A model generated the notes under the pieces. The model did not search any database. It saw only the letters and a program-made list of their open reading frames with translations, and was not told the DNA's origin. Shown piece by piece: positions 9,284 through 12,086 of a stretch of DNA of 64,000 nucleotides. The stretch is from an uncultured Bacillota bacterium. Lineage in GTDB: Bacteria; Bacillota_I; Bacilli_A; RFN20; CAG-288. The translations under genes were made by a program, and so were the position numbers. Numbering within the stretch: position 1 is the stretch's first letter; each line of letters begins with the position of its first letter. The stretch spans positions 1 to 64,000 of the forward strand of contig CASDOO010000006.1 of NCBI GenBank assembly GCA_949282275.1, in the 5' to 3' direction.

Positions 9284-10786
9284 CTATAGGTACTTTGCGG
9301 ATAGTCTCAGCAATTCTTCCTGATTGGTCGCCTTGGTGTCAACGATACCGGCGAGCTGCTTGTTGGATAGGACGGCGATACGATTCGTGATTCCAAGAAG
9401 TTCAGGCATTTCGGAAGAGACCATGAGAATCGTCTTTCCTTGTTCAGCCATTCTTATGATGAGTTCATAGACTTCATATTTGGCCAAGATATCGATGCCT
9501 CTGGTCGGCTCATCCATAAGGAAGACGTCTGGGCTTCTTTCCAGCCACTTGCCGATGATGACTTTCTGCTGATTGCCGCCGGAAAGCGAGGTGATCATAT
9601 CGTCCGGCCCCATGCACTTGACATGCATTTTGGCACATTCGTTTTCGGTCGCCTTTCTCATTTTGGAGTTGTTCAGAACAAAGCCAAAGTCCATGTAGTC
9701 ATTTAGGTTCGTGATGCATGTGTTGAAGATGAGGTCTCCGTTTTTGAACATGCCGTTGGCTTTTCTTTCTTCCGTGATCATGGCGAAGTTTTCTTTCATG
9801 GCATCATGGGAATTCCGGAAGTTTAAAAGCTTTCCCCGATAGCGGATTTCCGCAGAAGCGATGGTTCGAAGGCCAAATAGGCATTCCAGCAGTTCTGTGC
9901 AGCCGGCGCCGATAAGGCCGTAGATTCCGAGGATCTCCCCTTTTCGGACGGAAAAGGAAATATCCTTGAGAACCGGTTCGTATTTCGAGAAGAGGTGTTG
10001 GATGGTCAAGATTTCTTCCCCAGGGTGATTGGTGAGTGGGGGGAAGCGATTCTCCAGTGAACGTCCGACCATTGCGGCGACGATTTCGCCCATGTTCGTT
10101 TCCGGGACGGGTTTCTGGAAGATGACTTCGCCATCTCTTAGAACGGCGACATCGTCACAGATCTCGAAGACTTCGTCCATCTTGTGGGATATGTAGACGA
10201 ACGAGACGCCCTTTGCGGTCAATTTGCGGATGATGTCGAAGAGCTTCTTGACTTCGTTTTCGGCAAGCGAGGAAGTCGGCTCGTCGAGAATGATGACTTC
10301 GGCATTGTAAGAGACCGCTTTTGCGATTTCGACCATCTGTCTTTGCGCGACTGCCATATGGCGCATGATCAAAGACGGATCGATGTTGATTCCCAGTTGC
10401 GCGAAGAGTCGGAGAGCTTCCGCCTTTTCCTTGGCCTCATCGATGACGAGACCTAGTTTCGTTTCGTATTTTCCGAGATAAAGGTTGTCCAAGACGGTTC
10501 TATCCAGGCACTGGTTGAGTTCCTGGTGGACCATGGCGATTCCATGAAAAAGAGCATCGCGGGGGCCATTGAATTCTGTTGGATTGCCCTTGAAGTAGAT
10601 TTCACCGCTGTTTTTCTGATAAATGCCGAAAAGGCAATTCATCATCGTGGATTTTCCGGCGCCATTTTCGCCCATCAATCCAAGAACATGTCCCTTTTTC
10701 AGCTGGATGTTGACATTTTTGAGGACGACATTCTTTCCGAAGGATTTCGACATATTCTTTATTTCGAGGATTGTTTCGTCTGTCAT
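9284..10786 (-). CDS. mglA: Sugar ABC importer ATP-binding protein
   Basis: Tandem ATPase of the MglA/RbsA class, 500 residues, powering sugar import. The first domain has Walker A GENGAGKST (about 39-47), a signature region AVAQRQMVEIAKA and Walker B VIILDEPTSS. The second domain has the degenerate Walker A GLIGAGCTE, then LSGGNQQKVIIGKWL and VFLMDEPTRGID, as in the family. The start at 10786 follows GGAGG. An in-frame ATG at 10837 would add an unlikely leader. It lies between mglB and mglC with 13-67 bp gaps. Confidence 0.95.
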   Translation of the reverse strand: MTDETILEIKNMSKSFGKNVVLKNVNIQLKKGHVLGLMGENGAGKSTMMNCLFGIYQKNSGEIYFKGNPTEFNGPRDALFHGIAMVHQELNQCLDRTVLDNLYLGKYETKLGLVIDEAKEKAEALRLFAQLGINIDPSLIMRHMAVAQRQMVEIAKAVSYNAEVIILDEPTSSLAENEVKKLFDIIRKLTAKGVSFVYISHKMDEVFEICDDVAVLRDGEVIFQKPVPETNMGEIVAAMVGRSLENRFPPLTNHPGEEILTIQHLFSKYEPVLKDISFSVRKGEILGIYGLIGAGCTELLECLFGLRTIASAEIRYRGKLLNFRNSHDAMKENFAMITEERKANGMFKNGDLIFNTCITNLNDYMDFGFVLNNSKMRKATENECAKMHVKCMGPDDMITSLSGGNQQKVIIGKWLERSPDVFLMDEPTRGIDILAKYEVYELIIRMAEQGKTILMVSSEMPELLGITNRIAVLSNKQLAGIVDTKATNQEELLRLSAKYL

Positions 10787-10853: not shown

Positions 10854-12086
10854 TTATTTGTTGGCCTTGAACCAGTTGACGACCATTTCCTGCATGGCCT
10901 CGCCCTGACCATCGCGGGCGGTGCCGACGAAGAATGTCTTGTCCCTGTTGGCAATTGCCGAATCGGCAACTGTGGATCCGTTTTCGGACTTGGAGGGCTG
11001 TCTGTTGTAGAAGACGATCGGCGCGCCTTTCTTGGCGGCATCGATTTTCTCGACATAGCTCTCCCAAGCCGTATTGGTTTGGACATTGATGATGAAGGCG
11101 TCATATCTTTGGAGGTCTGTCATCTGATCGTAGATCTTGGAATCCTGGTTGCCGTCTCCCATGACGATGTCTCCGCCGTTGTTGATGGTGAGGTTGAAAT
11201 GCTCGCAGTATTCCGTGATGGCGGGATAGACGTTGTTGGCAAGGAAGTCGTCGCCGGCCTTGTAGCCGCAAACGAAGACGTTCTTTTCCGTGTATTCCGT
11301 CTTATCATCGGAGAGGTCGATGGTCTCGCCGGATTTCAGGGTCTGGGCATCTTCCTTCGTGGTGACAGGCGTGACCTTGGATGCGAAGTTCTTGTAAGTA
11401 TTGTCGTAGACCTTGTCGTGGTTCATTTTTTCGAGAAGGTCGTTCCAGTGATCGGCATTGGTTCCGGTGAATTCTCCGGTGGCGGAAATCGATGCACCAT
11501 CAAGAAGGGCTCTCGTGATCAAGGCACACAGATAACCCTGATCGTTTCCGTTCTGCGAAATGGTTCCGGCAAAACCCTTACCCTCGATGATGGCATCCAA
11601 GACCGTCGGAAGGGCATCGAAGCCGAAGACAGGAGGATTGTCGAGATCCTTATAGCTGTTAGATTCATAGACGGCATAAGCCATACCGTCGTTGTTGGAA
11701 AGAATGGCATCGATTTGATCGCCATACTGGGAAGCCCAACCATCGAATGTGTTCTTCGCCGTCGGGGCATGCCATGCGCCGGCGTTAGGATCTCTCATCG
11801 TCTGCTGAGCAAGCCTAGCGACATCGACGCTGCTATCCTTTCCGATGTCCACCATACCTTCATCGAGACCATCGGTTCTGGCTTCGGCCTCCGGGTTTCC
11901 GTCTTCGCCTTTCATCAAAACATAGCCGAGTGTTCCGTCCTGGTTGCGGTCCCATTTGTTCGTGGTGACCTTTTCCGTTCCTTCGGGAACGGTATAGACC
12001 AAGTCAGCATAGCCACTTCCGGTGCAAGAGGTGAGAGCCAATCCGACAAAACCCAACACGGCCAATGGAATTAAATTCTTTTTCAT
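10854..12086 (-). CDS. mglB: Galactose/glucose-binding lipoprotein, apparently circularly permuted
   Basis: Substrate-binding lipoprotein of the mgl importer, 410 residues, with lipobox LTSC (Cys 21). The two halves are in the reverse of the usual MglB order. Residues 45-260 match the C-terminal half: the calcium loop W-D-R-N-Q-D-G (45-51), GNPEAEAR, SNNDGMA, FGFDALP and a TPVTTKED end. After a short acidic linker, residues about 268-410 match the N-terminal half: YKAGDDF, GDGNQDSKIYDQ, YDAFIINVQ, PIVFYNRQPS, FFVGT, ending VVNWFKANK. Sugar ligands known in E. coli GBP (Asp14, Asn91, Arg158, Trp183, Asn211, Asp236, Asn256) have counterparts; His152 is Asn and Asp154 is Glu. AAGGAGG precedes the ATG. 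It heads the operon. Confidence 0.88.
   Translation of the reverse strand: MKKNLIPLAVLGFVGLALTSCTGSGYADLVYTVPEGTEKVTTNKWDRNQDGTLGYVLMKGEDGNPEAEARTDGLDEGMVDIGKDSSVDVARLAQQTMRDPNAGAWHAPTAKNTFDGWASQYGDQIDAILSNNDGMAYAVYESNSYKDLDNPPVFGFDALPTVLDAIIEGKGFAGTISQNGNDQGYLCALITRALLDGASISATGEFTGTNADHWNDLLEKMNHDKVYDNTYKNFASKVTPVTTKEDAQTLKSGETIDLSDDKTEYTEKNVFVCGYKAGDDFLANNVYPAITEYCEHFNLTINNGGDIVMGDGNQDSKIYDQMTDLQRYDAFIINVQTNTAWESYVEKIDAAKKGAPIVFYNRQPSKSENGSTVADSAIANRDKTFFVGTARDGQGEAMQEMVVNWFKANK

Follow-up and report, generated by a model that had tools for sequence, protein, structure and literature searches.

The lipoprotein gene at positions 10,854–12,086 (minus strand) of the 64,000-nucleotide stretch of DNA analyzed here (the window), from an uncultured Bacillota bacterium, encodes a sugar-binding protein of the MglB family that is a natural circular permutant. 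Three segments were defined on canonical MglB: A, the start of the N-lobe; B, running from VVFFNKEPS.. until the first N-lobe block ends; and C, from the calcium loop DxNxDG to the C-terminus. Whereas Escherichia coli MglB (EcMglB) has the order A-B-C, the 410-residue window protein, read from an ATG start and provided with a lipobox, has the order C-A-B (Table 1). An earlier note on this DNA had described the gene product as a circularly permuted MglB, a description now confirmed by a rotation scan, sequence profiles, a comparison across the family and structure prediction.

Table 1. Features of the permuted binding-protein gene and of its transporter neighbours (positions in the window).
Feature	Positions	Strand	Basis
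Lipoprotein signal peptide, residues 1-21, lipobox LTSC (Cys21)	12024..12086	-	sequence
N-terminal spacer past the lipid-anchored Cys, residues 22-43	11958..12023	-	without MglB counterpart in rotated alignment
Segment C, residues 44-242: calcium loop, C-lobe, returning strands to MglB C-terminus; placed first	11361..11957	-	canonical profile A2 132-294, E 2.2e-33; PF13407 at 122-257
Calcium-loop motif DRNQDG, residues 46-51 = EcMglB D134-G139; close to new N-terminus	11934..11951	-	alignment
Acidic linker, old C-terminus to old N-terminus, residues 243-266 (approximate boundaries)	11289..11360	-	rotated alignment
Segment A, residues 267-351: three first N-lobe strands	11034..11288	-	PF18610 at 267-338; profile A2 3-134 spans A and B
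Segment B, residues 352-410: PIVFYNRQPS..FFVG, remaining N-lobe; placed last	10857..11033	-	rotated alignment, canonical profile
mglA-like ATPase, directly downstream, likely start ATG at 10786	9284..10786	-	PF00005, 2 stretches, E 4e-48
mglC-like permease, N-terminal extension of about 280 residues	7495..9270	-	PF02653 at residues 294-579, E 4.3e-35; NCBIfam MglC subthreshold

In the rotation scan, in which every third residue of EcMglB was tried as a start, the linear sequence aligned to the mature window protein with a Smith-Waterman score of 219, and the score rose to 268 when EcMglB was rotated to start at residue 133. This top rotation lies just ahead of the calcium loop WDLNKDG; shuffled sequences scored 71 or less. 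A profile built from canonical proteins only recognizes its two blocks in swapped order, positions 132–294 matching nucleotides 11,466–11,972, first in the protein, and positions 3–134 matching 10,857–11,291, second (E 4.8e-15). The calcium loop and second half precede the first half, as had been proposed. The stretch between the halves is indeed acidic, a C-to-A linker of this kind being present in C-A-B and B-C-A relatives as well, and the C-terminus (..VVNWFKANK) stops a few residues before the point at which a canonical chain would reach the calcium loop. A two-copy HMM of the rotated family alignment, with seeds that include the window protein itself, covers this protein as one collinear end-to-end domain (136–504); its opening falls at model position 136, and those of B-C-A proteins at about 60–100.

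The AlphaFold2 model of the window protein is two-lobed and confident (pLDDT 87.5, pTM 0.84), with pLDDT values below 70 near the start of the N-terminal spacer. A Foldseek search with this model returned structures of Tp0684 (MglB-2) from Treponema pallidum as the top matches (E 3e-19). EcMglB, with 34% identity in 136 columns, is aligned over its C-lobe alone. The alignments of several canonical type I proteins extend over about 368 columns, at only 10–14% identity; in these long matches the two lobes may have been superposed in exchanged places, as a pseudo-two-fold fold would permit.

The window protein scores 83.5 bits against PF13407, the periplasmic binding protein domain (cut-off 35.1), 46.7 bits against PF18610, the permuted A segment that forms a domain of the Tp0684 group (cut-off 36.8), and 104 bits against the NCBIfam MglB equivalog NF011924, whose cut-off is 420. 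Its order differs from the A-B-C order of MglB-type proteins, and also from Type Ic / Cluster Bc, which is defined by a split N-lobe with segment B at the N-terminus and an opening at model positions 70–86. Four inter-lobe crossings and D-glucose binding with closure, the latter examined for Tp0684 by calorimetry and ultracentrifugation, are further traits of this class.

The earlier note had described the ligand residues that it could place as mostly kept in each half, and seven of the ten sugar contacts of EcMglB, a list checked against Table 2 of PMC4990184, are identical in the window protein (D14, F16, N91, R158, W183, N211 and D236). The remaining three are altered (H152N, D154E and N256Q), and the ligand may therefore be other than glucose or galactose. 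All nine members of the C-A-B clade that contains the window protein carry these three exchanges, which suggests a shared change of ligand. B-C-A and canonical proteins retain the calcium ligands, which C-A-B proteins have mostly lost, the exceptions being the window protein and its relative from genome G010; since the C-A-B chain is opened at the calcium loop, its calcium ligands should be free to decay. The binding cleft would be kept in the permuted chain.

The relative in G010 (the same sequence as CASESG010000008.1) encodes an 84% identical protein in which the order C-A-B is kept, and the order is therefore not an assembly artefact. Comparison of the two genes gives a dN of 0.112 and a dS of about 1.0, i.e., a dN/dS of about 0.11, corresponding to strong purifying selection, and dN stays between 0.09 and 0.15 in C, A and B as well as in the linker. 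The window protein is the sole MglB-type binding protein found in its genome, which is 84% complete. An open frame of 331 codons runs antisense to the gene (11,079–12,074, plus strand) and is probably a by-product of codon use.

The operon context is conserved: an MglA-like gene comes next after 22 of the 28 C-A-B genes. The N-terminal extension of the window's MglC is charged and helix-like by sequence. Similar extensions, of about 245–400 amino acids, occur on the MglC beside all permuted genes with a readable mglC except one (L120). Extended MglC proteins are absent in E. coli and some other Bacilli, and they were considered as a mark of permutation; because they also accompany 11 of 16 canonical genes, they are not specific to it, and this proposal was rejected.

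The family was surveyed with PF18610 and the canonical profile in 279 genomes of the window's order, and samples were taken from its class and phylum and from two more groups of Bacilli; an additional scan of 84,980 named species contributed its 80 best loci, and Spirochaetes were surveyed in part. The opening positions of 142 distinct complete proteins form discrete groups. Canonical A-B-C proteins account for 27 of them and B-C-A proteins for 85, the latter from Spirochaetes, Coriobacteria, Lachnospiraceae, Lacticaseibacillus, Anaeroplasma and some members of the window's order. The 28 C-A-B proteins open at about 136–152 and all come from the window's order as far as their kinship is known; the other Bacilli sampled for C-A-B genes yielded A-B-C and B-C-A patterns alone. 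In two single genes the opening lies within the C-lobe, at 191 in L015 and at 277 in L013 (in genome G020). When the C-terminus of L013 (..DALASIQQG) is joined to its N-terminus (HMTGTVSQ..), an unbroken family sequence is restored with no residue lost, the break falling between Gly and His.

Several loci carry more than one copy. Tandem pairs of C-A-B genes are found in L144, L147, L145, L203 and L204, where insertions, largely between C and A, bring many proteins to 470–620 amino acids. Two C-A-B-like paralogues (L205:1052-2581 and L206:2144-3682) are extended at the N-terminus by about 150 residues ahead of the calcium-loop position, and their segment B is divergent. Canonical MglB paralogues adjoin permuted ones in L207:75-4444, L024, L025 and L129. 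Genes for a response regulator and a sensor-kinase-like protein are located upstream in G020; this suggests that the permuted copy may act in transport, with the canonical one working for a sugar sensor. Matches to the MglB C-lobe (27–34% identity) were also seen in the unannotated faecal phage records MT835545, MT836545, MT838241 and MT836394, and may be bacterial contamination.

A tree was built from sequences put back in canonical order. All C-A-B and B-C-A proteins, together with L013, form one clade (support 100/98), within which the C-A-B clade of the window protein (nine rows, 100/98) branches first; a second C-A-B clade, of 17, is joined to the B-C-A group. L014, a B-C-A gene of the window's own genus, is nested in this second C-A-B clade (18 rows, 100/100). 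Between its segments B and C stands NTDWWQHAIEDGKLTYGLIIG, which resembles the mature N-terminus of C-A-B proteins (SNTWSLENALSDGELNYALLIG); the remnant at this junction, NTDWWQHAIEDGKLTYGLIIGQIDHND, is likewise similar to the C-A-B N-terminus SNTWSLENALSDGELNYALLIGQIDHND. The DxNxDG loop is retained in 13 of 14 B-C-A rows, and L014 has the C-A-B-like remnant instead. Given its nested position and this remnant, segment B of a C-A-B protein most likely moved back to the front in L014, a re-permutation from C-A-B to B-C-A that would imply repeated re-opening of the chain. In AU tests of groups that were chosen after the first tree had been seen, monophyly of B-C-A (p 4e-104) and of C-A-B (p 0.0046) was rejected, the latter also with L014 added (p 0.0077). 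L015 is sister to the canonical L016 and L017 (support 100/99, 50% identity), which points either to an independent permutation or to a sister that reverted to canonical order.

These data suggest a natural series of permutations, a reading that we hold tentatively and at somewhat less than even confidence. A single ancestral ring closure, in which the linker joined C to A, would have been followed by repeated re-opening at different loops. C-A-B would have come first and the B-C-A order of Tp0684 would be derived; L013 would have been opened in the C-lobe, L014 would have passed from C-A-B to B-C-A a second time, and L015 would be a further, independent permutant that arose from the canonical relatives L016 and L017. 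An origin of C-A-B on two separate occasions, from canonical or B-C-A genes, is less likely, although the rejection of a single C-A-B clade, even with L014, speaks for it. The permuted proteins with a long C-to-A linker form one clade, which favours a single ring closure with subsequent re-opening; counts of order changes, five with C-A-B ancestral and six (by hand) with B-C-A ancestral, differ by one only, a weak margin. Fission of the gene, with the lobe pieces split and rejoined in another order and no duplication, is improbable. It would fit an opening at the lobe boundary, as in the window protein, and the suggestion of Brautigam et al. that the displaced terminal segment of Tp0684 perhaps derives from another gene (PMC4990184). 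Against it, the A-B block of the window protein is recognized by the canonical-only profile, and the gene in G020 is cut in mid-domain with nothing missing, as expected of duplication and trimming.

It is very unlikely that the window protein is an ordinary member of the Tp0684 subclass (MglB-2, ‘Type Ic’) with the same permutation. Tp0684 is its best PDB match by sequence and fold, PF18610 matches it, and one clade holds the proteins of both orders. In Tp0684, however, segment B comes first (window residues 353–406 align to chain residues 20–72, ahead of residues 44–348), whereas it is last in the window protein, and the opening position cleanly separates the 28 C-A-B from the 85 B-C-A genes. 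An identical order is refuted; the two proteins do belong together in the wider permuted group. The C-A-B genes come, where records are named, from metagenome-assembled genomes, as an assembly or binning artefact might lead one to expect; such an artefact is effectively refuted, its probability being negligible, by 28 different C-A-B proteins in more than 20 genomes, the purifying selection and the conserved operon.

Permuted MglB as such is already known. The reading of a natural permutation in this family was correct, but one had been published in 2016 for T. pallidum Tp0684 with another opening point, in the order B-C-A, with four inter-lobe crossings and an assignment to Type Ic / Cluster Bc (PDB codes 5JX2, 6BGC and 6BGD; PMC4990184). 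Tp0684 shares with the window protein a lipid anchor, a permuted MglB-type chain in which C is connected to A, and partnership with an ABC transporter, and it keeps most sugar contacts, N256Q being common to both. Tp0684 is opened inside the N-lobe, where both termini lie, whereas the opening of the window protein is at the boundary of the lobes, by the calcium loop; the latter protein has H152N and D154E and keeps D14, whereas Tp0684 has Asn at the D14 position. With E. coli MglB (GGBP; PDB codes 2GBP and 2FVY) the window protein shares the fold family, the seven sugar contacts, the DxNxDG motif and the gene order mglB-mglA-mglC; the E. coli protein differs by its A-B-C order, the absence of a lipobox (its signal ends AHA-A) and the absence of a linker between the termini. 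Among open-access papers, the one on Tp0684 was the only one found on this subject; none was found that dealt with a C-A-B order or with a family opened at several points. As far as found, the lobe-boundary C-A-B form, known from about 30 proteins, is new, as is the series of orders in one bacterial order (A-B-C, B-C-A, C-A-B and two C-lobe openings).

We consider it very probable that the gene product serves an MglA-MglC transporter as its membrane-anchored sugar-binding subunit, opened as a C-A-B permutant at the first inter-lobe hinge by the calcium loop, with the old termini linked by roughly 24 acidic residues. In the mechanism that best explains its origin, an mglB-type gene would have been duplicated in tandem, the copies fused and the outer ends trimmed to give the new termini; the same ring would have been re-opened at other loops in related genes, once from C-A-B to B-C-A. 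A vestige of the tandem duplication was sought beside the window gene and four relatives. None was seen by the window gene, and the matches listed all belong to the intact canonical paralogue that adjoins L013. The product would close on a monosaccharide in the manner of a Venus flytrap and hand the sugar to MglAC. From the hinge positions of EcMglB, we take the canonical chain to cross between the lobes three times (N-C-N-C). The C-A-B chain would likewise cross three times, in the mirror order C-N-C-N, as against four crossings in the B-C-A order of Tp0684, so that an opening at the lobe boundary would disturb the internally two-fold fold least, and C-A-B may be the permutation that changes the wiring of the fold least. 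The lipid anchor in C-A-B proteins sits near the hinge.

As a rule, natural circular permutations are known from isolated examples. In the present case, a single transport protein, with the same fold, operon and presumed function throughout, is found among related bacteria in a minimum of five chain orders, and sequence divergence is low enough to trace the steps. Recognition of the A-B block by the canonical-only profile indicates that a simple permutation is enough in this case, which bears on the doubt about another gene as a source in Tp0684. Permuted binding proteins are also scaffolds of biosensors, where the permuted versions have been made by hand. With this series, direct tests become possible of how permutations originate and are tolerated, of whether the position of the lipid anchor drives them, the anchoring advantage proposed for Tp0684 by Brautigam et al. 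(PMC4990184), and of whether opening at the lobe boundary is nearly neutral through the internal two-fold fold.
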